A stretch of 64,000 bases of DNA from the NCBI RefSeq assembly GCF_001651865.1, contig NZ_LPUX01000062.1, positions 124,001 through 188,000 on the forward strand, read 5' to 3'. The notes beneath the pieces were generated by a model that saw only the letters and a list, made by a program, of their open reading frames with translations, was not told where the DNA came from and did not search any database. The translations under genes were made by a program, and so were the position numbers. This document shows positions 1,597 to 58,258 of the stretch, piece after piece (positions within the stretch are counted from its first letter, which is position 1; each line of letters starts with the position of its first letter). The stretch is from Sinorhizobium glycinis (lineage in GTDB: Bacteria; Pseudomonadota; Alphaproteobacteria; Rhizobiales; Rhizobiaceae).

Positions 1597-1754
1597 GTTC
1601 CTTGTCTTGGTTAGCGCTATATCCAAAGAAATACAATGCTCTGCAAGAGGGGTAATCAAAGCGGTGAATGAAAGCGGCAGACCCGGCGCGGGTGCTTGCG
1701 ACGATCGCGCAAGGGTCTAAATTTCCGGAGCGGAACGAAGCGAGGTAAATATCC

Positions 1755-2480
1755 ATGGATGCGACGATCAGGCTGGAGGAAAGCTGGAAGACCGTTCTGA
1801 CGCCGGAGTTCCGTCATGCCTACATGGCCGATCTCAAGCGCTTTCTCCGGGACGAGAAGCATCAGGGCAGGCAGATCTTTCCGAAAGGCAGCGAGTATTT
1901 CCGGGCGCTCGATCTGACGCCGCTCGACAAGGTCCGGGTCGTGATCCTCGGCCAGGATCCCTATCACGGCGACGGCCAGGCGCACGGGCTTTGCTTCAGC
2001 GTGCAGCCGGGCGTGCGCACGCCGCCGTCGCTTGTCAACATCTACAAGGAACTTCGCGACGACCTCGGCATTCCGCCGGCCCGGCACGGCTTCCTCGAAA
2101 GCTGGGCTCGCCAGGGGGTGCTGCTCCTGAACAGCGTGCTGACGGTCGAACGGGGCCGGGCGGCCTCGCATCAGGGCAAGGGCTGGGAACGCTTTACTGA
2201 TGCGGTTATCCGCGTCGTCAACGAACAGCCGCAGCCGGTCGTCTTCATGCTCTGGGGCTCCTATGCGCAGAAGAAGGCGGCCTTCGTCGACCGTTCCCGG
2301 CATCTGGTTCTGACCGCGCCGCATCCGTCGCCGCTCTCGGCGCATTCCGGCTTCCTCGGCTGCAAGCATTTCTCGAAAGCCAATGCCTTCCTGCAGTCGA
2401 CCGGGCTCGATCCGATCGATTGGCGGCTGCCGGACGATCCGCCTCTCGCCGTCGACCGGCAGGCCGCGGCGCCCTGCTGA
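1755..2480 (+). CDS. ung: Uracil-DNA glycosylase, family 1
   Basis: Base-excision repair enzyme that removes uracil from DNA. The 241 aa length is normal for family 1. The water-activating motif GQDPYHG is at residues 66-72, [10 protein letters not shown] follows in the middle, and the DNA-intercalation loop [11 protein letters not shown] is close to residue 195. All catalytic elements are present. The ATG at 1755 has GAGG nine bases upstream. The gene is divergent from modA and stands alone; cobF starts 189 bases downstream behind a RIME-like repeat. Confidence 0.98.
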
Positions 2481-2550
2481 CGCCGTCGTCGCGCCTCCTG
2501 TCGTCATTGGACCTTGCGCCGCCGGTCCCGATTCGCCAAAGACTGGCGTC

Positions 2551-2650
2551 TAATGCGCGTCGCACTCAAACATGCGACGCGCTTTAGGGATTTGTTTTGT
2601 GCATGTCGGTGCCCCAAAACCGCTGCACACTTTTGGGCGACATGCACTGC
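2551..2650. repeat. RIME-like intergenic mosaic repeat (two palindromes)
   Basis: Two consecutive dyads fill the gap between ung and cobF. The first is GCGCGTCGCA (2555-2564) paired with TGCGACGCGC (2573-2582), a perfect 10-bp stem. The second is GCATGTCG (2601-2608) paired with CGACATGC (2638-2645), enclosing CCCAAAA and TTTTGGG, which also pair. The architecture matches the Rhizobium-specific intergenic mosaic elements known from Sinorhizobium and relatives. A related palindrome lies at 62741-62785. Confidence 0.8.
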
Positions 2651-2669
2651 GCGTAGCGGGAGAGACGGC

Positions 2670-3440
2670 ATGCGACATATCCTCGTCATCGGTATCGGAG
2701 CGGGCAACCCCGAACACATCACGGTTCAGGCGATCAATGCGCTGAACCGGGCCGACGTGCTGTTCATCCCGACCAAGGGAGCAAAGAAGACAGAGCTTGC
2801 CGAGGTGCGCCGGGATATCTGTAGCCGCTACGTGAGGAGCAGCGACAGCCGGACCGTCGAATTTGCCGTGCCGGTCCGCCGCACCGAGGGGCGCAGCTAC
2901 GTTGAAAGCGTCGATGACTGGCATGCCGGCATTTCCGAGACTTACGAGGCGATGCTCGAGGACGAGCTTGCGGAGGGAAAGACCGGCGCCTTCCTGGTCT
3001 GGGGCGATCCGATGCTCTACGACAGCACGATCCGCATCGTCGAAAGGGTTCGCGCACGGGGCCGCGTAGCGTTCGACTTCGAGGTGATCCCCGGCATCAC
3101 CAGCCTCCAGGCTCTCTGCGCCAGCCATCGCATCCCGCTCAACCTCGTCGGCAAGCCCGTGGAGATCACCACCGGCCGCCGGCTTGCCGAGAACTTTCCG
3201 CACAACAGCGAGACCTCGGTCGTGATGCTCGACGGTGAGCAGGCCTTCCAGAAGATCGACGATCCGGAGGCGGAAATCTATTGGGGCGCCTATCTCGGCA
3301 CGCCGGACGAGATCGTCATCTCCGGGCGCCTCGCCGACGTAAGGGAAGAAATCCTGAGGGCGAGGGCCGAGGCGCGCGAGCGGATGGGCTGGATCATGGA
3401 CATCTATCTTCTGCGCAAGGGCGCGGATTTCGACGAGTAA
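2670..3440 (+). CDS. cobF: Precorrin-6A synthase (deacetylating) CobF
   Basis: SAM-dependent methyltransferase of the aerobic cobalamin pathway that methylates C-1 of precorrin-5 with loss of the acetyl group, giving precorrin-6A. 256 aa. The N-terminus MRHILVIGIGAGNPEHITVQ is the typical tetrapyrrole-methylase start, followed by VLFIPTKGAKK and the SAM-site loop GAFLVWGDPMLYDSTIRI. The start at 2670 has GGAG seven bases upstream; the open frame extends 52 codons further upstream but only through the repeat. It is separated from cobG by a 128-base gap holding a dyad. The presence of CobF and CobG marks the oxygen-dependent route. Confidence 0.96.
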   Translation: MRHILVIGIGAGNPEHITVQAINALNRADVLFIPTKGAKKTELAEVRRDICSRYVRSSDSRTVEFAVPVRRTEGRSYVESVDDWHAGISETYEAMLEDELAEGKTGAFLVWGDPMLYDSTIRIVERVRARGRVAFDFEVIPGITSLQALCASHRIPLNLVGKPVEITTGRRLAENFPHNSETSVVMLDGEQAFQKIDDPEAEIYWGAYLGTPDEIVISGRLADVREEILRARAEARERMGWIMDIYLLRKGADFDE

Positions 3441-3500
3441 GCGCACAAATCCGCAGGCGACGACTTGGCCAGGCTTTGATCTCTCTCAAGGAAGGCGGCT

Positions 3501-3519
3501 GTGATATAGGCTCTATCAC
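3501..3519. promoter_or_regulatory. Perfect dyad between cobF and cobG (candidate operator)
   Basis: GTGATA at 3501-3506 and TATCAC at 3514-3519 form a perfect 6-bp inverted repeat around a 7-base spacer, 50 bases before the cobG start. It is not a Crp/Fnr site (spacing is wrong) and no B12-box sequence accompanies it. A regulator-binding site or small hairpin are both possible. Confidence 0.35.
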
Positions 3520-3568
3520 GGATACCAAGTGTGAGGCCGCAAATGCTGCCCAAGGAAAATGGAAGTCG

Positions 3569-4933
3569 ATGACGAGCTGCGCTGCGCCTAAGCCTCAGAA
3601 GGAGACCGGCACATCGATGCGCCGCGGCACCTGTCCGTCGCTCGCAGCGCCGATGCAGACGGGAGACGGTCTGCTCGTGCGGCTGCGTCCGGCGGCCGAT
3701 GGTTTGACGCCCGCCGAGCTGAGAGCGCTGGCCGAAGCGGCCGCCGCCGTCGGCAATGGCATCATCGAGGTGACCGCCCGGGGGAACCTTCAGATCCGCG
3801 GCCTGACTGCATCCAGCGTTCCGGCCCTTGCAGCCGCGATCGGAGAGGCGGGAATTGCCGTTGCCGAGGGGGTCGCTATCGAAACACCGCCGCTTGCCGG
3901 AGTTGATCCCAGCGAAATCGCCGACCCTCGGCCCTTGGCCACGGCCTTGCGCGCCGCGATTGCCGATCGGCGTCCGGCGCTGACGCTCGCGCCGAAACTG
4001 TCGATCGTTATTGATGGGCGTGGCCGCTTTCACCTGCGGGATGTTGCGGCCGACCTGCGTGTTGAAGCGTTGAACAGCGAGGATGGTCTACGCTGGCTGT
4101 TGTCGCTCGGCGGCACGGCGCGTCCGGAACGGCCCGTTGTGCTGCTGGAGACGGAACGGGTTGTCCCCGCGGTGATGGAACTTCTCGCGGAACTCGATGC
4201 CCTAGGCGCGGCCGCGCGCGGCCGCGACCTCGATGCGGATCGCATCCGGCAGCGCTTGTCGGCCGATCGCGATGCGCTGCCGACGGCCGGCGGGGGCTCG
4301 CCCTTCTTGCCGGCGGGCATTCACGATTTCGGCGATGGGCGCATCGTGCTCGGTATCGCTCTTGCTTTTGCACAGACCGACAGTGCCGATCTCATTGCCT
4401 TTCTGCACCGCGCCGAGGAACTTGGCGCGACGGAAATTCGCTTGGCGCCGCGCCATGGCATCCTTGTCCTCGGCCTGTCGAGCGCGGCGGCCGCTATCGC
4501 GCAGCGGCTCGCACTTTCCCAAGGCTTCCTGGTCGCCCCCGACGATCCGCGCAATCATATCGCGACCTGCGCCGGCCTTGCCTGCGCATCGGCGCTGATG
4601 GACACCAAGGCGGCGGCCAGATCATTGGTCGAAGTCGGCGCCGACCTCCTCGACGGCTCGCTCGCAGTCCATCTCTCGGGCTGCGCCAAGGGATGCGCCA
4701 GGCCCAGCGCTTCTCCCCTGACGCTTGTCGGTGCGCCATCAGGATATGCGCTTGTCGTAAATGGCACTGCTTCCGTCGCGCCGAGCGCCTACAGGGAGGA
4801 ACACGGAATAAGAAACGCGCTGGCCGGCCTCAACGCGCTGGTGCGGGAGAACAAAGACGCTGGCGAATCGGCGCGCGCCTGTCTTACACGGCTCGGGACC
4901 GCGCGCATCGTCGCCGCGTTTGAACAGGGATAG
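3569..4933 (+). CDS. cobG: Precorrin-3B synthase CobG (monooxygenase)
   Basis: Iron-sulfur monooxygenase that uses O2 to convert precorrin-3A to precorrin-3B, the step that prepares ring contraction in the aerobic pathway. The protein is 454 aa with the start at 3569 (MTSCAAPKPQKETGTSMRRG), matching the family length. The frame is open upstream into cobF, but that part has no homologous character. It is built like nitrite/sulfite reductases, with two half-repeats and cluster-binding cysteines in TCAGLACASA (about residue 334) and SGCAKGCARP (about residue 370). cobH follows after 2 bases. Confidence 0.95.
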   Translation: MTSCAAPKPQKETGTSMRRGTCPSLAAPMQTGDGLLVRLRPAADGLTPAELRALAEAAAAVGNGIIEVTARGNLQIRGLTASSVPALAAAIGEAGIAVAEGVAIETPPLAGVDPSEIADPRPLATALRAAIADRRPALTLAPKLSIVIDGRGRFHLRDVAADLRVEALNSEDGLRWLLSLGGTARPERPVVLLETERVVPAVMELLAELDALGAAARGRDLDADRIRQRLSADRDALPTAGGGSPFLPAGIHDFGDGRIVLGIALAFAQTDSADLIAFLHRAEELGATEIRLAPRHGILVLGLSSAAAAIAQRLALSQGFLVAPDDPRNHIATCAGLACASALMDTKAAARSLVEVGADLLDGSLAVHLSGCAKGCARPSASPLTLVGAPSGYALVVNGTASVAPSAYREEHGIRNALAGLNALVRENKDAGESARACLTRLGTARIVAAFEQG

Positions 4934-4935
4934 AC

Positions 4936-5568
4936 ATGCCTGACTACGATTATATCCGCGATGGCAACGCCATCTACGAGCGTTCCTTCGCGATCATCCG
5001 GACGGAAGCCGACCTTTCGGGCTTCTCGGAGGAAGAGGCCGATCTTGCGGTGCGCATGGTGCATGCCTGCGGTTCCGTGGAGGCGGCGCGTCAGTTCGTG
5101 TTCTCCCCCGATTTCGTCTCTGCCGCACGCAATGCTCTGAAAAGCGGTGCCCCGATCTTCTGCGATGCGGAAATGGTCGCCCATGGCGTCACCCGGGCGC
5201 GGTTGCCGGCCGGCAACGAGGTGATCTGCACGCTTCGCGATCCGCGCACGGCGGAGATCGCGGCCGAGATCGGCAATACGCGCTCGGCGGCGGCATTGAA
5301 GCTTTGGGGCAAGCGAATGGCCGGCTCGGTCGTTGCGATCGGCAATGCGCCGACGGCGCTCTTCTTTCTTCTCGAAATGCTGCGCGACGGCGCGCCGAAG
5401 CCGGCGGCGATCCTTGGCATGGCCGTCGGCTTCGTCGGCGCGGCGGAATCGAAGGATGCGCTCGCCGAGAATTCCTATGGGGTGCCCTTTGCCATCGTCC
5501 GGGGCCGGCTTGGCGGCAGCGCCATGACGGCGGCGGCGTTGAACTCGCTCGCGAGGCCTGGCCTGTGA
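4936..5568 (+). CDS. cobH: Precorrin-8X methylmutase CobH
   Basis: Catalyses the 1,5-shift of the methyl group from C-11 to C-12, turning precorrin-8X into hydrogenobyrinate. 210 aa, the usual length. The catalytic histidine established for the Pseudomonas denitrificans enzyme (His43) is present as H43 in VRMVHACGS. Other family landmarks are AMADVSMV-like DAEMVAHGV, GNAPTALF and GMAVGFVGAAESK. It starts 2 bases after cobG and its stop overlaps the GTG start of cobI, so translation is probably coupled. Confidence 0.97.
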   Translation: MPDYDYIRDGNAIYERSFAIIRTEADLSGFSEEEADLAVRMVHACGSVEAARQFVFSPDFVSAARNALKSGAPIFCDAEMVAHGVTRARLPAGNEVICTLRDPRTAEIAAEIGNTRSAAALKLWGKRMAGSVVAIGNAPTALFFLLEMLRDGAPKPAAILGMAVGFVGAAESKDALAENSYGVPFAIVRGRLGGSAMTAAALNSLARPGL

Positions 5569-6314
5569 GCGGGCGGGGCAGGCTGATCGGCGTCGGGACC
5601 GGCCCCGGCGACCCGGAGCTTTTGACCGTGAAGGCGGTCAGGGCGCTCGGCGAGGCGGATGTCGTCGCCTATTTCGCCAAGGCGGGGCGCAACGGCAACG
5701 GCCGCGCCGTCGTCGAAGGTATTCTCAGGCAGGATCTGGTGGAACTGCCGCTCTACTATCCGGTGACCACCGAGATCGACAAGGACGACGAAGCCTATAA
5801 ACGGCAGATCACCGACTTCTACGATGCCTCCGCAGAAGCCGTGGCCTTGCATCTCAAGGCGGGGCGCACGGTTGCCGTATTGAGCGAGGGTGACCCGCTC
5901 TTCTACGGCTCTTACATGCACCTGCATGTGCGGCTCGCGGGCCGGTTTCCGGTCGAGGTCATTCCCGGTATTACGGCGATGTCCGGCTGCTGGTCGGCTG
6001 CCGGCCTGCCGCTGGTGCAAGGGGACGACGTGCTTTCGGTGCTTCCCGGCACGATGGGCGAGGGCGAGCTACAGCGCCGCCTCGCCGATACCGAAGCCGC
6101 CGTTATCATGAAAGTCGGCCGCAACCTGCCGAAGATCCGCCGTGCGCTCGCGGCAGCAGGCAGGCTGGATGCTGCCGTCTATGTCGAACGCGGCACGATG
6201 AAGAACGCGGCGATGGTACCGCTTGGCGAGAAGCCGGACGACGACGCCCCCTATTTCTCGCTCGTCCTTGTTCCCGGCTGGAAGGACAGGCCCGGCCCGA
6301 AGGACAGAGCATGA
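5565..6314 (+). CDS. cobI: Precorrin-2 C20-methyltransferase CobI
   Basis: SAM-dependent methylation of precorrin-2 at C-20 to give precorrin-3A. The GTG at 5565 overlaps the cobH stop (GTGA) and gives a 249-aa protein beginning MSGRGRLIGVGTGPGDPELL, the standard N-terminus; longer upstream reading is just antisense to cobH sense information. LSEGDPLFYGSYMHL and VIPGITAMSGCWSAAGLPL are the SAM-binding loops of the tetrapyrrole methylase fold. It overlaps cobJ by ATGA at 6311-6314. Confidence 0.96.
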   Translation: MSGRGRLIGVGTGPGDPELLTVKAVRALGEADVVAYFAKAGRNGNGRAVVEGILRQDLVELPLYYPVTTEIDKDDEAYKRQITDFYDASAEAVALHLKAGRTVAVLSEGDPLFYGSYMHLHVRLAGRFPVEVIPGITAMSGCWSAAGLPLVQGDDVLSVLPGTMGEGELQRRLADTEAAVIMKVGRNLPKIRRALAAAGRLDAAVYVERGTMKNAAMVPLGEKPDDDAPYFSLVLVPGWKDRPGPKDRA

Positions 6315-7075
6315 CCGGAAAACTCTTCATCGTCGGCACCGGCCCCGGCAATCCAGCGCAGATGACGCCGGAGGCACAGGATGCGATCGCGGTTGCGAGC
6401 GAATTCTTCGGTTATGGTCCCTATCTCGACCGCCTGCACCTGAGGGCCGATCAACGGCGCATCGCCTCCGACAACCGCGAGGAACTGGACCGGGCGAGAG
6501 CCGCGCTGATGCGCGCGAGCGCCGGCGTCGATGTCTGCGTGGTCTCCGGCGGCGACCCGGGCATCTTTGCGATGGCAGCAGCCGTCTGCGAGGCGATCGA
6601 CAAGGGTCCGGAGGAATGGCGCCTAGTCGATCTTGTGATCACGCCCGGCGTCACGGCCATGCTCGCGGTGGCGGCGCGCATCGGCGCGCCGCTCGGCCAC
6701 GATTTTTGCGCCATGTCGCTCTCGGATAACCTGAAGCCGTGGGACGTGATCACCAGGCGGCTACGGCTGGCTGCGCAAGCGGGGCTGGTCATCGCCCTTT
6801 ACAACCCGATCAGCAAGGCGCGGCCGTGGCAGCTCGGGAAGGCCTTTGAGGTCCTGCGCGACGTCCTGCCGGGCGGCGTGCCGGTGATCTTCGGCCGGGC
6901 GGCCGGGCGACCGGACGAGCGCATCGCGGTCATGCCGCTCGGCGAAGCCGATCCGGACCGCGCCGATATGGCGACCTGCGTGATCATCGGTTCGCCGGAG
7001 ACGCGCATCGTTGCCCGCGACGGCAAGCCGGATCTCGTCTACACGCCGCGGTCCTTTACCGGGGAAAGCCATTGA
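6311..7075 (+). CDS. cobJ: Precorrin-3B C17-methyltransferase CobJ
   Basis: Methylates C-17 of precorrin-3B and drives ring contraction to precorrin-4. 254 aa. MTGKLFIVGTGPGNPAQMTPE is the conserved N-terminus, CVVSGGDPGIFAMAAAV the SAM loop, and VIALYNPISKARPWQL the later family motif. The start overlaps the cobI stop by four bases. The last 37 bases overlap the 3' end of the antisense gene cobK. Confidence 0.96.
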   Translation: MTGKLFIVGTGPGNPAQMTPEAQDAIAVASEFFGYGPYLDRLHLRADQRRIASDNREELDRARAALMRASAGVDVCVVSGGDPGIFAMAAAVCEAIDKGPEEWRLVDLVITPGVTAMLAVAARIGAPLGHDFCAMSLSDNLKPWDVITRRLRLAAQAGLVIALYNPISKARPWQLGKAFEVLRDVLPGGVPVIFGRAAGRPDERIAVMPLGEADPDRADMATCVIIGSPETRIVARDGKPDLVYTPRSFTGESH

Positions 7076-7839
7076 TGGATGCGTTCGAGCGCCTCATCGC
7101 AGTTGCTGACCGACGGCACGTCGACGGGCTTGTGGCGCTCGACCATCACCACATCGAGGCCGAGCTTCCGGGCCGCGGCGATCTTGCCGTAGGTAGCAGT
7201 GCCGCCGCTGTTCTTGGCAACGATGACATCGATATGATGTTCTCCGAGGAGCGTCGCCTCGTCTGCCTCGGCGAACGGGCCGTGCGCCAGGATCGCGGTG
7301 GCATCGGGAAGGTTCAGCGGCGGCGTCACGGGGTCGACGCTGCGGACGATGTAGCTGTGCTGCGGCGCCTTCTCGAAGTGGAAGGCCTCCTGTCGGCCGA
7401 TGGCCAGGAAGACGCGGCGCGGCGCCGCGCCAAGGGCGGAGACCGCCTCGGCCACGCTTGCGACGCGCGTCCAGCGGTCGCCCGGCCGGGCGTCCCAGGC
7501 GGGCCGTCGCAGGGCGAAGAGCGGCGTTCCCGTTGCAGCCGCGGCGGCTGCCGCGTTGTGGGAAATACGCGCGGCGAAGGGATGCGTCGCATCGACGAGC
7601 AGGGAAACCTTCTCGAGTTCCAGGAAAACGGCCAGCCCTTCGGCACCCCCGAAGCCGCCGGCGCGGGTCGGCAATGGCTGCGGCCGCGGATCGGCGGTGC
7701 GGCCGGCCAGCGAGATCGCCGCATCGTAGCGCCCATCGGCCGCGAGGCTTCCGGCAAGCTGCCGCGCCTCCGTCGTGCCGCCGAGGATCAGGATGCGAGG
7801 TCTGCCCGTGGCTGACTTGTCGAACGGCGTCTCGGCCAT
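7039..7839 (-). CDS. cobK: Precorrin-6A reductase CobK, antisense within the cob cluster
   Basis: NADPH-dependent reductase converting precorrin-6A to precorrin-6B (dihydro form). 266 aa from the ATG at 7839, which has GGGAG five bases upstream. Landmarks are RILILGGTTEARQLAGSLA at the N-terminus, DATHPFAARISHNAA, a GRQEAFHF segment and IDVIVAKNSGGTATYGKIAAAR near the end. It is transcribed against all other cob genes here. Its 5' end overlaps the start of cobL by 32 bases (divergent) and its 3' end overlaps cobJ by 37 bases (convergent). The protein itself appears intact. Confidence 0.96.
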   Translation of the reverse strand: MAETPFDKSATGRPRILILGGTTEARQLAGSLAADGRYDAAISLAGRTADPRPQPLPTRAGGFGGAEGLAVFLELEKVSLLVDATHPFAARISHNAAAAAAATGTPLFALRRPAWDARPGDRWTRVASVAEAVSALGAAPRRVFLAIGRQEAFHFEKAPQHSYIVRSVDPVTPPLNLPDATAILAHGPFAEADEATLLGEHHIDVIVAKNSGGTATYGKIAAARKLGLDVVMVERHKPVDVPSVSNCDEALERIHQWLSPVKDRGV

Positions 7840-9049
7840 TGTCGCTCCCTGGTTGACCATTGTCGGTATCGGGGAAGATGGTGTAGCCGGTCTTGGCGAC
7901 GAGGCCAAGCGCCTCATTGCGGCAGCGCCTGTCATCTTTGGCGGCGTCCGCCACATCGAACTCGCGGCGTCCTTGATTAATGGCGAGAGCGAGGTCTGGC
8001 AGAGCCCCTTCGAAAAATCGGTCGAGGCAATCGTTTCAAGGCGAGGGAGTCCCGTCGTGGTGCTCGCCTCCGGCGATCCGTTCCTCTACGGTGTCGGCGC
8101 CACGCTGGCGCGCCGTATCGACGCCGGCGAGATGCGGACGATCCCTGCGCCTTCGGCCTTCAGCCTGGCGGCCTCGCGGCTCGGATGGCCGCTGCAGGAG
8201 TTGGCGACCGTCTCGCTGCACGGCCGCCCGCTCGATCTCATTCGGCCGCTGCTGCAGCCGGGCGCCCGCGTTCTGGCACTGACCTCCGATGAGACCGGTC
8301 CCAAGGCGCTTGCCGAGCTGCTGTGTGAAAGCGGTTTCGGTCAGTCGCGGCTTACCGTTCTCGAAGCGCTTGGCGGCGAGGGCGAGCGCGTCTCGCGGCA
8401 CGTGGCAGCGAGCTTCGCACTGGAGGAGGTCCATTCCCTGAACGTCTGCGCCATCGAAGTCGTTGCCGATGCAGCCGCGCGCGTCCTGCCACTTGCCGGC
8501 GGCCTCGACGATGCGCTCTTCGAGCATGACGGCCAGATCACCAAGCGCGAGGTCAGGGCGCTGACGCTCTCGGCGCTGGCACCGCGCAAGGGCGAGCTTC
8601 TCTGGGACGTCGGCTCCGGCTCCGGCTCGATCGCCATCGAATGGCTGCTCGCCGATCCGGCGATGCGGGCGATCGCCATCGAAGCATCGCCCGAGCGGGC
8701 GGCGCGGATCGGTCGCAATGCCGGCCGCTTCGGCGTGCCCGGCCTGACGGTTGTGGACGGGCAGGCGCCGGACGCGCTCTCGGGACTCGGTCGCCCGGAT
8801 GCGATCTTCATCGGCGGCGGCGGCAGCGATGCCGGTGTCATGGAGGCGGCGATCGCAGCACTTCCCTGCGGCGGCCGGTTGGTCGCGAACGCCGTGACGA
8901 CGGAGATGGAAGCAGTGCTGCTTGCCCACCATGCCCGACTCGGCGGTTCGCTGATCCGGATCGACATCGCCCGGGCGTCCCCGGTCGGCACGATGACGGG
9001 CTGGCGGCCGGCCATGCCGGTGACGCAATGGTCCTGGGTCAAGGCCTGA
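7808..9049 (+). CDS. cobL: Precorrin-6Y C5,15-methyltransferase (decarboxylating) CobL
   Basis: Bifunctional enzyme: an N-terminal CbiE-like domain methylates C-5 and a C-terminal CbiT-like domain methylates C-15 with decarboxylation of the acetate side chain, yielding precorrin-8X. 413 aa from the GTG at 7808 (VADLSNGVSAIVAPWLTIVG), preceded by GAGG seven bases away. SPWLT-like opening, VVLASGDPFLYGVGATL in the first domain and the Rossmann motif WDVGSGSGSIAIEWLL near residue 266 in the second. Its first 32 bases are antisense to the beginning of cobK, so promoters for the two genes must lie inside each other's coding sequence. Confidence 0.95.
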   Translation: MADLSNGVSAIVAPWLTIVGIGEDGVAGLGDEAKRLIAAAPVIFGGVRHIELAASLINGESEVWQSPFEKSVEAIVSRRGSPVVVLASGDPFLYGVGATLARRIDAGEMRTIPAPSAFSLAASRLGWPLQELATVSLHGRPLDLIRPLLQPGARVLALTSDETGPKALAELLCESGFGQSRLTVLEALGGEGERVSRHVAASFALEEVHSLNVCAIEVVADAAARVLPLAGGLDDALFEHDGQITKREVRALTLSALAPRKGELLWDVGSGSGSIAIEWLLADPAMRAIAIEASPERAARIGRNAGRFGVPGLTVVDGQAPDALSGLGRPDAIFIGGGGSDAGVMEAAIAALPCGGRLVANAVTTEMEAVLLAHHARLGGSLIRIDIARASPVGTMTGWRPAMPVTQWSWVKA

Positions 9050-9068
9050 ATTCTCAAGAGGATAGACT

Positions 9069-9827
9069 ATGACGGTTCATTTCATCGGCGCAGGACCAGG
9101 CGCAGCAGACCTCATCACGGTCAGGGGCAGGGACCTGATCGGCCGTTGCCCGGTCTGCCTCTATGCCGGGTCGATCGTCTCGCCGGAGCTCCTCCAATAT
9201 TGCCCGGCCGGCGCCCGCATCATCGACACGGCGCCGATGTCGCTCGACGAGATCGAGGCGGAATATCTCCGGGCGGCTGAAGCCGGGGAGGATGTCGCGC
9301 GGCTGCATTCCGGCGACCTTTCCGTCTGGAGTGCGGTTGCCGAGCAGATCCGACGTCTGGAGAAGCACGGTATCGGCTACACGATGACGCCGGGCGTGCC
9401 GGCCTTCGCTGCCGCGGCGGCAACGCTCGGCCGCGAATTGACCATTCCGGCGGTGGCGCAAAGCCTGGTGCTGACGCGGGTCTCCGGTCGCGCCTCACCG
9501 ATGCCGTACAGCGAGACGCTTGCGGCATTCGGCGCCACCGGCTCGACGCTGGCGATCCATCTTGCGATTCATGCGCTCGACCGCGTGGTCGAGGAACTGA
9601 CGCCGCTCTACGGTGCCGATTGCCCGGTGGCGATCGTCGTCAAGGCCTCCTGGCCGGACGAACGCGTCGTGCGCGGAACGCTCGGCGACATCGCCGCCAG
9701 GGTTGCGGTCGATCCGATCGAGCGCACGGCGCTGATCTTCGTCGGACCGGGGCTGGAAGCATCGGACTTCCGGGAGAGCTCTCTCTACGACCCGGCCTAT
9801 CAGCGCCGCTTCCGCGGCCGCGAATAG
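9069..9827 (+). CDS. cobM: Precorrin-4 C11-methyltransferase CobM
   Basis: Methylates C-11 of precorrin-4 to give precorrin-5, the substrate of CobF. 252 aa, beginning [20 protein letters not shown], with [30 protein letters not shown] and [25 protein letters not shown] lies seven bases upstream of the ATG. It follows cobL after 19 bases and ends the cob run; the antiporter operon converges on it 7 bases later, with no obvious terminator hairpin between them. Confidence 0.97.
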
Positions 9828-9834
9828 AGCGAAT

Positions 9835-10206
9835 TCATTCCGACCCCGGTTCCGCCGCCGGCTTCGGCTTGCGCGGAACGTCGCTCCGCTCCTTGACGCG
9901 GTCGCGATAAAGAGCCGCCTGGCCGAGCAGCATCAGCGTCACCGGCGTCGTCACGGTGACGAAGAAGATGATCAGCAGTTCGTGGAAGATCCAGCGGCTC
10001 TGCAGCACCGCGAAGCAGAGCATCGAGGCCAGGCAGATGAGGATCGTGCCGCCGCTCGTCGCGATCGTCGGGGCGTGCAGGCGGTCGTAGAAGCTCGGAA
10101 GACGCAGCAGGCCCAGAGAGCCGATGAGCGTCATCGCCGCTCCGAGAAGCAGCAAGCCGCAAACCAAGATCGCCGCCCACGGCGGCAGGTCGGTCAGATG
10201 GTTCAT
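9835..10206 (-). CDS. phaG: Cation/proton antiporter subunit PhaG (MnhG/MrpG)
   Basis: Small membrane subunit of the multisubunit (Mrp/Pha) monovalent cation/H+ antiporter. 123 aa with three predicted membrane spans: WAAILVCGLLLLGAAMTLIG, then the conserved GLLRLPSFYDRLHAPTIATS loop, then two further hydrophobic runs. The cytoplasmic tail is charged (KERSDVPRKPKPAAEPGSE). ATG at 10206 with GAGG seven bases upstream; it overlaps the phaF stop (ATGA). Last gene of the operon. Confidence 0.95.
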   Translation of the reverse strand: MNHLTDLPPWAAILVCGLLLLGAAMTLIGSLGLLRLPSFYDRLHAPTIATSGGTILICLASMLCFAVLQSRWIFHELLIIFFVTVTTPVTLMLLGQAALYRDRVKERSDVPRKPKPAAEPGSE

Positions 10207-10484
10207 TCGATCACCTCGCCGCGCATGAGGAATTTCGCGAAGGCGATGGAGGAGGCGAAGCCGATCAGGGCGATGATCAGCGCCGTCTCGAAATAGATCG
10301 TGTTGGCGGTGCGAATGCCGAAGGCGAGCAGCATCAGCATCGCGTTGATGTAGAGCGTATCGAGCCCGAGGATGCGGTCCTGGGCGCGCGGCCCCTTGAT
10401 GATCCGATAGAGTGCGAAGGCCATCGCCAAGGCGAGCATGACCTGCGCAAGCAGGATCGACCAGACGATTGCAAGCGCGGTCAT
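10203..10484 (-). CDS. phaF: Cation/proton antiporter subunit PhaF (MnhF/MrpF)
   Basis: Membrane subunit of 93 aa with three hydrophobic segments (IVWSILLAQVMLALAMAFAL, a middle span after DRILGLDTLYINAM, and ALIIALIGFASSIAFAKFL). The sequence KGPRAQDRILGLDT is the signature of MrpF. It overlaps phaE by four bases at its start and phaG by four bases at its end, showing tight translational coupling in the pha operon. Confidence 0.95.
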   Translation of the reverse strand: MTALAIVWSILLAQVMLALAMAFALYRIIKGPRAQDRILGLDTLYINAMLMLLAFGIRTANTIYFETALIIALIGFASSIAFAKFLMRGEVIE

Positions 10485-10966
10485 TCAAGTATCTCCTTCA
10501 GTCCCGCTTCGTAGCGCTTGACCGTTCGCCGCCAGAGATCCTCGTTGTCGATATCGAGCACATGCAGAAGCAAGCTCTTCTGGCGCCGGTCGTATTCGAG
10601 CCAGGCGGTGCCGGGGGTCGCGGTCAGGATGCAGGCGAGCAGGGCCAGCGCGTTCTCATTCTCAAGATCGACATCGACGGTCATGAAACCGGTGTTTGCC
10701 GGCTTGCCTCGGGGCCGCAGGATGATCCGCGCGACCGCGACATTGGAGCGAATGATGTCGGCGGCGACGGCAAGTGCGAAGCCTGCCATAAGCCCCAGAC
10801 GGCGGAGGCGCGATTGGCTCGGCTGCAGCTTCACCATTACCCAGCCGAGCAGCGTGCTCAGAAAGAGACTGAGGACGATCGAGCCGGGCGCCACCGACTG
10901 GTTGAGCAACAACCACATGAGGAAGAGGGCGATCGAGAACAGCGGATAAGGATACCACGCGCGCAT
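10481..10966 (-). CDS. phaE: Cation/proton antiporter subunit PhaE (MnhE/MrpE)
   Basis: Subunit E of the Mrp/Pha antiporter, 161 aa. Two or three membrane spans at the N-terminus (YPLFSIALFLMWLLLNQS, IVLSLFLSTLLGWVM, GFALAVAADIIRSNVAVAR), followed by a soluble domain with TPGTAWLEYDRRQKSLLLHV. The start is two bases after the phaD stop. Longer reading frames upstream are antisense noise within phaD. Confidence 0.94.
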   Translation of the reverse strand: MRAWYPYPLFSIALFLMWLLLNQSVAPGSIVLSLFLSTLLGWVMVKLQPSQSRLRRLGLMAGFALAVAADIIRSNVAVARIILRPRGKPANTGFMTVDVDLENENALALLACILTATPGTAWLEYDRRQKSLLLHVLDIDNEDLWRRTVKRYEAGLKEILE

Positions 10967-10968
10967 CG

Positions 10969-12588
10969 CTACTCGCCCCCCGCCCTGGGTGCGGAAAGAA
11001 CCCGCTCGCTGAGGACGAGGGGCGCGAGCAGATCGTCGGCGGTCGCCTGCATGTATCGCATCGCCGGCCGGGCCTGGAAGCTCAGGAAGATGCAGGCGGC
11101 GAGCAGGACGGCAACGGGCGTGATCTCGATGACGACGACGCGTGGTATAGTCCCCTCGATCGAAGCCCAGAAGGTCCGGATGCCGACCCGATTCATGGCG
11201 ATCATGGCGGCGAGACCCGAAAGGATGACGAGCGCCACATAGATCCAGTCGGCGGCGGAAATGGCGCTGGCAGGGTTTGCCTCCGGCAGGTCGAAGAGCC
11301 CGCGCAGCAGCGCGAATTTGGCGATGAAGCCCGAAAGCGGCGGCAGGCCGGAAAGCAGGATGGCGCACAGGCAGAAACAGAGCCCGAGAATGGCCATCGT
11401 GCCTGGAATGGCGACGCCCACTTCCTCCTCTTCTTCATCATCGTCGAAGTCGCCATAGGCTTCCATGGTCACCGCCAGAACGTCGGCGCCGGCATCGCGG
11501 CCGCGCTCGACAAGCTCGATGAGCAGGAAGAAGGCGGCAATCGTCAGCGTCGAGCTGACGAGATAGAGGAGGGCGCCCGCGAGCATTTCCGGTCGTCCGA
11601 GGCCGATCGCCGCGAGCAGCGTCCCGGAGGAGACGAGCACCGAATAGGCGGCGAGCCGTCCCATCGCCTGAGAAGCAAGCACGCCGATGGTGCCGAAGGC
11701 GATCGTCAGCATGCCGCCGGTCAGAAGCCACTCCTGACCGAATCCGGCCGACGCGCCCGCCGCGGTGCCGAAGACGAGCATATGCAGGCGGAGGATGACG
11801 TAGATCCCCACCTTCGTGAGGATGGCGGAGACGGCGGCGACGGGGGGCGTTGCCGCCGCATAGGCCGCCGGCAGCCAGAAGCTCAACGGCCACATGCCCG
11901 CCTTGACGAGAAAGGCGACGCCCAGCACGGCGGCGCCGGTTTCTACGAGCCGCCGGCTTTCCGGCGCGAGCGTGGCGAGCTTCGTGGCGAGATCCGCCAT
12001 GCTGAGCGTGCCGGTGGCGCCGTAGATCAGGCTGACGCCGATCAGGAACAGCGACGAGGCGGCGAGATTGATGGCGACGTAGTGGAGTCCGGCTTTGACG
12101 CGCAGGGGGCCGGAGCCATGCAGCAGCAAGCCGTAGGACGCGGCGAGCATCATCTCGAAGAAGACGAAGAGGTTGAACAGGTCGCCGGTCAGGAAGGCGC
12201 CGTTGAGACCGGCGACGAGCAGTTGGAACAGCGAATGGAAATGGTGTCCGGCGGTGTGCCAGCGGGCCATCGAATAGACCTGCGCGGCAAGCGCCAGGCC
12301 GCTTGCGAGGCAGAGCATCAGCGCCGACAGCCGGTCGAGGACGAGGACGATGCCGAACGGCGCGGGCCAGTTGCCAAGCTGGTAGACGCCGCCGGCGGGC
12401 AGGCTGCCTTCGCCTGCCGCGGCAAGCCGCATCAGGATCATCGTGACGATGAAGACGACGAGCGTCGAGGCGAAGCCGATCGCTCCCTTCATCGTGCGTT
12501 CGCGCTCGTCGATCGGGATCAACACCGCCGCGACGGCGAGCGGCAGCAGGACCGGCAGGATCAGGAGGTGGTGCAGCCAATCAGTCAC
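10969..12588 (-). CDS. phaD: Cation/proton antiporter subunit PhaD (MnhD/MrpD)
   Basis: Large polytopic subunit related to respiratory complex I proton-channel subunits (NuoN/NuoM). With the GTG start at 12588 (VTDWLHHLLILPVLLPLAVA) it is 539 aa. That start has GGGAG ten bases upstream and overlaps the phaC stop, whereas an ATG at 12615 lacks a ribosome site. FNLFVFFEMMLAASYGLLLHG contains the conserved glutamate and KAGMWPLSFWLPAAYAAATP the conserved lysine and proline-rich region of the channel. An acidic insertion (DFDDDEEEEEVG) near residue 390 is unusual and presumably a cytoplasmic loop. Confidence 0.95.
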   Translation of the reverse strand: MTDWLHHLLILPVLLPLAVAAVLIPIDERERTMKGAIGFASTLVVFIVTMILMRLAAAGEGSLPAGGVYQLGNWPAPFGIVLVLDRLSALMLCLASGLALAAQVYSMARWHTAGHHFHSLFQLLVAGLNGAFLTGDLFNLFVFFEMMLAASYGLLLHGSGPLRVKAGLHYVAINLAASSLFLIGVSLIYGATGTLSMADLATKLATLAPESRRLVETGAAVLGVAFLVKAGMWPLSFWLPAAYAAATPPVAAVSAILTKVGIYVILRLHMLVFGTAAGASAGFGQEWLLTGGMLTIAFGTIGVLASQAMGRLAAYSVLVSSGTLLAAIGLGRPEMLAGALLYLVSSTLTIAAFFLLIELVERGRDAGADVLAVTMEAYGDFDDDEEEEEVGVAIPGTMAILGLCFCLCAILLSGLPPLSGFIAKFALLRGLFDLPEANPASAISAADWIYVALVILSGLAAMIAMNRVGIRTFWASIEGTIPRVVVIEITPVAVLLAACIFLSFQARPAMRYMQATADDLLAPLVLSERVLSAPRAGGE

Positions 12589-57654: not shown

Positions 57655-57899
57655 GATTCGTCTTTCTGTTCTGACCCGCGGGAGCCGGAAAGCTCCATCG
57701 AATCCCCGGTTTGGGATATCTCCGCGGCGCGCAACGGCGCGGCTGCAATCGTTCATCTAAAGTGAACACTCCCGCCCTGGCCCGGTCCAGAAAAAATTAG
57801 GGGCGAAATGGAAAAAACTCTTGATTACGACAGTGATTTTTCTTACCTACGCCCTTGCCCAAAGTCGCACGTGCCTGTGGGTGTCCGCCGACCCTCGAT

Positions 57900-58258
57900 T
57901 AGGTGAGGATCTCGGTAAGGTACCTGGAACTAACCCCTCCAGTCGCTATTCCGGCCAACCGGGAAATGCGAGGACATCTTGAAGCAACGACGGTGCGGGC
58001 CTTTCTGGTGTCTGCCGGCTCTCCAACAGCCGGGGTTACTGAAGAGGCACACCTTCATTGCCGGAAGTGCGGTTGGGTTATTCCCTCCAATCCATGGCAG
58101 ACAAAGCCGAGTCTTAGCCTTTGCGGGCTTCGATTCACCGTTACGCGCATCGAGCGCATGCATGGTTCCGGGGTCTCCACCGGCTGGTTCCAGTGCAAGC
58201 GCGCGTATGCCCTTTGTCCTCCACAGTCGTGGAGTTTAATGGATCGGGGAATAAGGCC
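57900..58258 (+). ncRNA. Probable speF-class leader RNA of the decarboxylase gene
   Basis: Part of the 604-base gap 57655-58258. Clear stems: TTCCGG/CCGGGAA near 57950, CCGGCT/AGCCGG (58015-58033) and CTCCAC/GTGGAG (58219-58234). Alphaproteobacterial ornithine-decarboxylase genes are known to carry a long conserved 5' RNA, the speF motif; position and length agree, but I could not check the consensus base by base. A TTGATT at 57821 with a weak TACCTA 17 bases later could be its promoter. A 34-codon ORF (58158-58262) overlaps the gene start. From 57655 to about 57820 I see nothing else. Confidence 0.5.

Follow-up and report, generated by a model that had tools for sequence, protein, structure and literature searches.

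The menE-menC-MW1733-ytkD-MW1731 locus of Staphylococcus aureus has been described as a noncontiguous operon, an arrangement in which opposing transcripts regulate each other (PMC7154746). For the cob genes, overlaps between adjacent pairs from cobH to cobL have been published for four Ensifer species, Rhizobium leguminosarum, and Pseudomonas denitrificans; the text of that work leaves the strand of cobK undiscussed and promoters and transcription untreated, and its Fig. 1 draws gene direction by arrows (PMC4070679). Antisense RNA alone would be unremarkable, because antisense transcripts accompany about 35% of the protein-coding genes of Sinorhizobium meliloti (PMC3616915).

Here, we analyze the cob run of Sinorhizobium glycinis in a 64,000-nt stretch of its genome (the window). 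The cobK gene lies on the minus strand between the plus-strand genes cobJ and cobL, and from this geometry a cobK transcript is predicted to run antisense across the cobJ-cobL junction. The locus is a candidate noncontiguous operon, the two transcripts of which might affect each other. The overlaps are already in print, and the new part is the comparative evidence for a promoter inside cobL; no earlier report of a cobK promoter at that place was found in the literature searched, which included a minority of the subscription papers.

Gene order, overlaps, and distribution

The features of the run are collected in Table 1. The original prediction that cobK is antisense within the run and overlaps both of its neighbors is confirmed by the sequence and by the list of open reading frames, and cobK, as an opposite-strand gene between genes of one run, shares this feature with noncontiguous operons. 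The start codon of cobK is ATG (7839..7837, minus strand). The original P. denitrificans sequence papers may describe the orientation of cobK. In addition to the match listed in Table 1, CobK scores 125.7 with TIGR00715, slightly under the cut-off of 129.85, and the genome contains a single cobK match. A search of the window for a cobalamin riboswitch controlling the run found none that reached the Rfam gathering score; the five matches in the genome are all on other contigs. Elsewhere in the window, an Rfam ar45 sRNA and a speF leader adjoin at 57857-58168 on the plus strand.

Table 1. Genes of the cob run and candidate signals for cobK, in window coordinates
Feature	Position	Strand	Remarks
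cobF, cobG, cobH, cobI	2673..6314	+	Upstream stretch of the run; cobF start approximate; family models
cobJ, precorrin-3B C17-methyltransferase	6311..7075	+	NCBIfam NF004648, 486 bits (cut-off 391)
cobK, precorrin-6A reductase	7039..7839	-	NCBIfam NF005968, 336 bits (cut-off 231)
cobL, precorrin-6Y C5,15-methyltransferase	7808..9049	+	CbiE and CbiT domains; probable GTG start at 7808
AGGGAG, probable cobK ribosome-binding site	7845..7850	-	Within cobL; five bases 5' of the cobK ATG
CTACAC, probable -10 of cobK promoter	7881..7886	-	Within cobL codons GGT GTA G
CTTGGC, probable -35 of cobK promoter	7904..7909	-	17 nt from the -10
cobM, precorrin-4 C11-methyltransferase	9069..9827	+	
Monovalent cation/H+ antiporter subunit G gene	9835-10488	-	Next gene past cobM

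The overlap of cobJ and cobK is tail to tail, has the predicted length of 37 nt (7039-7075), and is set by the stop codons alone. The overlap of cobK and cobL is head to head and likewise has its predicted length, 32 nt (7808-7839), provided that GTG 7808 is the cobL start. In an alignment of the window with 13 near relatives, all 14 sequences have GTG or ATG as a start codon at 7808, and the 4-fold synonymous difference in cobL 7808-7841 is 0.000 (5 sites) versus a gene mean of 0.400 in the 14 sequences, as expected under double coding. The kept start codon and the absence of synonymous change indicate that GTG 7808 is the probable start of cobL.

Among 149 rows with the order cobJ> <cobK cobL> (in which our own locus is counted three times), 140 have a positive cobJ/cobK overlap, which is in phase 1 modulo 3 in 138 of them; where present, it ranges from 4 to 67 nt, and it is 37 nt in 62 rows. 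This pattern points to a common origin of the overlap followed by drift of the stop codons, and not to a maintained length. The geometry of the cobK and cobL heads is variable, the conserved protein cores being 17 to 767 nt apart (149 rows, 20 of which have no recognizable core), and in the nine plasmid loci with annotations for both cobK and cobL, the overlap of the two genes is 2 nt in eight and 95 nt in the ninth. The loci in which the annotated starts overlap head to head by 2 nt are L335, L342-L345, L348, L351, and L352. Conservation of overlap length, which had been proposed as a check, was not borne out: the phase of the tail overlap is kept and the lengths of both tail and head overlaps vary, so that no fixed length is preserved.

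The strongest rare-codon column of cobK (window residue index 254) covers the final base of the cobJ stop codon. Outside the overlaps, synonymous change is low in the 3' part of cobK past the cobJ stop (7086-7119, p 0.008; 7122-7155, p 0.041) and in the cobJ bin 6959-6992 (p 0.041), in a table in which about four bins below 0.05 are expected by chance. Both strands of 7060-7160 fold slightly better than shuffled sequences (z -1.7 and -1.6) and a shorter piece gave z +1.3, a signal too weak to support a terminator or other structure at this junction. The cobK leader shows no unusual folding (z -0.2 versus shuffles).

Searches for cobK with NF005968 matched 138 of 385 genomes of the class, 243 of 297 of the order, and 124 of 151 of the family, and a search with PF02571 matched 75 of 299 genomes of the phylum; these genome sets overlap one another. 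Gene surroundings were examined for loci from those match lists and for the ten nearest named loci (all Sinorhizobium or Ensifer), and 306 cobK loci were left after repeats and short proteins had been dropped. The order cobJ> <cobK cobL> is present in 157 of these 306. The arrangement with reversed cobK is old, is not peculiar to the window, and occurs in roughly half of the surveyed cobK loci. In 106 loci, cobK immediately follows cbiD on the same strand, and it often converges on cobM; cobK converges on cobJ with no forward cobL behind it in seven, shares a strand with cobL in the order cobK-cobL in seven and cobL-cobK in six, and has other surroundings in 23. The four clear layout states need eight changes on a FastTree CobK tree (276 rows), which is unrooted and does not give the order of the layouts in time.

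Two minor groups of loci bear on the same arrangement. Those with cobK followed by cobL on the same strand (L191, L197, L198, L202-L204, and L212) are a natural counterpart in which cobK is turned round, and they form one side of a branch (support 90) on the quick tree. In three loci from another class of the same phylum (L308, L309, and L318), the order is cobG-H-I-J> <cobK cobL-M>, with cobF behind cobM in L309 and L318; the layout in these other-class loci (families f241 and f233) may reflect transfer.

A candidate cobK promoter inside cobL

Two blocks of low synonymous change are present near the cobL start: the overlap itself, and 7880-7913, which is located 41-74 nt 5' of the cobK start and in which the synonymous difference is 0.183 versus 0.400 (p 0.002; the window and 13 near relatives). 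The minus strand of 7909..7881, within this second block, reads CTTGGC-N17-CTACAC. The S. meliloti sigma70 consensus is CTTGAC-N17-CTATAT, as quoted from the promoter data of PMC2873474, and the site fits it at 9 of 12 positions and in the 17-nt spacing. For the pattern CTTGRC-N17-CTANAY, which was drawn up post hoc, this site is the sole exact match in the 64 kb (0.04 expected). A general promoter scan of 1700-11000, for which the consensus was that of E. coli and not that of S. meliloti, detected no promoter.

Sigma70 sites with a spacing of 16-18 were scored in each locus against synonymous codon shuffles of that locus. At the cobL start, on the cobK strand, p was <0.05 in 40 of 70 Rhizobiaceae loci. 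Across 36 tests of regions and strands in cobJ, cobK, and cobL, this was the only combination to be enriched (57% of loci versus 0-6% elsewhere).

Further evidence comes from a single codon. Bases 3 and 2 of cobL codon 11 (7883-7885), which is GTA in the window, form the "TA" of the -10. Codons were compared in 138 loci (70 of Rhizobiaceae and 68 of other families) in which both cores were found and at least 200 cobL codons were available; 19 of the 157 loci with this gene order were dropped for core or length, including six of the 76 deduplicated Rhizobiaceae loci, and the rows compared are related and hence not independent. Codon 11 is NTA in 42 of the 70 Rhizobiaceae loci versus 2.6 expected from the codon usage of each locus (GTA in 25, CTA in 11, TTA in 4, and ATA in 2), and the encoded residue varies among Val, Leu, and Ile. 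GTA, CTA, TTA, and ATA are the rarest Val, Leu, and Ile codons in these genes (shares 0.036, 0.013, 0.004, and 0.045, respectively), and codon 11 is the top rare-codon column of those scanned in cobI, cobJ, cobK, and the first 200 codons of cobL (z 19.3; next, 9.5). Within the 42 NTA rows, a minimum of eight codon changes and five residue changes between the kinds of NTA was counted; on the tree of the 70 loci, NTA was gained or lost at least ten times. The remaining parts of the site go with this codon: GCCAAG (the -35 as read on the cobL strand) is present in 41 of the 42 loci with NTA and in 3 of the 28 without it, and GGT stands just ahead of NTA in 39 of the 42.

A rare codon near the start of cobL might instead be a translation signal for cobL itself, acting as a slow codon unrelated to cobK, and the position of NTA is as this explanation would have it. 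However, enrichment in the shuffle test is seen on the cobK strand, with none on the cobL strand, the codon is accompanied by GGT and, at the 17-nt spacing, by GCCAAG, and NTA is absent from all 15 cobL genes that have no adjoining reversed cobK, a weak control in that most of these genes have residues that NTA cannot encode. We regard a translation signal as very improbable.

The cobL DNA is constrained at this point at the nucleotide level, in the shape of a promoter on the cobK strand, and we infer that it is used as one. It is highly probable, on this comparative evidence, that cobK has its own housekeeping (sigma70-type) promoter within the coding DNA of cobL at 7909..7881 on the minus strand, and that cobL-cobM is read from upstream through cobK in the antisense direction. 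In Sinorhizobium and many of its relatives, cobK would be transcribed from a promoter among the 20 conserved codons at the beginning of cobL. Its transcript would have a 5' leader of some 30-40 nt and a ribosome-binding site that is likewise in cobL; for an S. meliloti sigma70 promoter, a start 5-12 nt downstream would be predicted.

The original prediction called for promoters within coding DNA for both of the genes with divergent starts. The comparative evidence sustains this for cobK and does not for cobL: a cobL promoter within cobK was sought, and no sigma70-type enrichment was found in the regions scanned (the first 225 codons of cobK). Nor did a weak scan, which gave no more sites than shuffled sequences, find a plus-strand terminator-like site in the interval from cobJ to cobL. 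Given that neither signal was found, the plus strand is expected to read through cobK. Thus, cobL and cobM would have no promoter of their own beside cobL and are probably read through cobK from upstream, which would give the locus the geometry of a noncontiguous operon.

Clade limits and possible alternative promoters

The NTA codon is absent from 28 of the 70 Rhizobiaceae loci and from 67 of the 68 other-family loci of the same gene order, one of which carries it; 13 of these 68 pass the shuffle test. As judged from the sequences compared, the candidate cobK promoter element is clade-specific and belongs to part of the Rhizobiaceae. Among 18 named plasmid-borne Rhizobiaceae loci, which were hand-picked after the promoter had been found, three carry NTA (S. 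meliloti, Shinella, and Rhizobium sp. BG6) and the other 15 carry CCA. Of three more alphaproteobacterial loci, two have neither NTA nor CCA and one has no recognizable core. A link between a wide cobK-cobL gap and loss of NTA was considered and set aside: in the nine loci with a core distance of >100 nt, NTA is present in four and absent in five, which is no clean loss of constraint, and in the other 61 it is present in 38 and absent in 23.

The 18 CCA rows (the 15 plasmid-borne loci and three of the 70) show CTGGAC-N16-GATAA(T/G) on the cobK strand, and in these rows codon 3 is ATT in nine and CTT in nine, so that the bases are kept but not the residue (z 3.8). This motif is perhaps a promoter shifted towards cobK; it was noticed after the fact, in rows that are close kin, and is best treated as a lead. 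The CCA loci are L334, L335, L337-L346, L348-L350, L049, L063, and L066.

A possible -35 in other families is given by cobL codons 17-18, which, as GCA/TCA AGC/AGT, produce CTTG on the cobK strand (in loci L015, L024, L032, L034, L160, L164, L172, L178, L186, L213, L279, L281, L282, L286, and L352). As a second kept site, codon 17 (GCA/TCA, giving TTG on the cobK strand) was rejected; it is the top column among unselected rows and is weak (z 4.3), and a z of 10.4 for the same codon is circular, the rows having been picked by that very codon. A count of in-register CATG (89 of 138 loci) was not used, being inflated by ATG codons within cobK (seen in L088).

Antisense regulation, relic, and known systems

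Whether the antisense arrangement has a function of its own is a separate matter from the presence of a promoter. A plain account is that the reversed cobK is a neutral relic of a layout in which cobK followed cbiD, with the promoter kept for expression of cobK and the antisense overlap idle. The frequency of the cbiD-cobK order among the 306 loci agrees with this account, certain cobJ> <cobK cobL> loci retain a reversed cbiD beyond cobM, and a profile search found no CbiD match in the genome of S. glycinis itself. However, the unrooted tree does not fix which layout is the older, and loci of other classes of the phylum show still other gene orders. We give a relic about an even chance.

The original prediction had proposed that opposing transcription sets the ratio of the reductase to the rest of the pathway. 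In such a mechanism, the cobK transcript and the cobF-cobM polycistron would repress each other through polymerase collision and RNase III cleavage, and this coupling would set the dose of CobK. The geometry fits the definition of the noncontiguous operon as worded in PMC7154746, many families share the gene order, which has changed state few times, and the plus strand has no detected terminator-like site from cobJ to cobL. Against these points, plain descent also predicts a kept gene order, and the overlap length itself is not kept; we consider antisense coupling possible, with the balance tilted against it. A broader proposal is that cobF-cobM has persisted as a noncontiguous operon across much of the Alphaproteobacteria, that the cobK mRNA and the cob polycistron restrain one another by means of a promoter held in cobL by rare NTA codons, and that a lost promoter is replaced a few bases nearer to cobK (in Rhizobium, CTGGAC-N16-GATAAK); we regard this proposal in its entirety as doubtful and rather unlikely.

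The arrangement is true and old, and the part worth following is the promoter apparently kept inside cobL. The cob genes form a model pathway that is also industrial. If the promoter of a gene sits in the codons of its neighbor, recoding or moving cobL can silence cobK with the protein unchanged, which matters for strain building. The site would also offer a clean test of regulation versus relic for an opposed gene in a run, as single synonymous changes should switch the promoter off.

Compared with cob clusters already described, the run in the window has the same genes and overlaps as those of Ensifer adhaerens, S. meliloti, S. medicae, S. fredii, R. leguminosarum, and P. denitrificans SC510 (PMC4070679). 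The putative element within cobL resembles the one at trmD/rplS of Caulobacter in being a conserved element for one gene that is located in the coding sequence of a different gene; the Caulobacter element acts on translation (PMC8144410), whereas the cob element resembles an opposite-strand promoter. Like the S. aureus men operon (PMC7154746), the cob locus has an opposite-strand gene inside a run, the mRNA of which would be complementary to the inner portion of the polycistron. Read-through, cleavage, and mutual repression, as described for the men operon, would be putative features of the cob locus, which differs in that the coding parts of its genes overlap and in that the inner gene and its neighbors serve one pathway.
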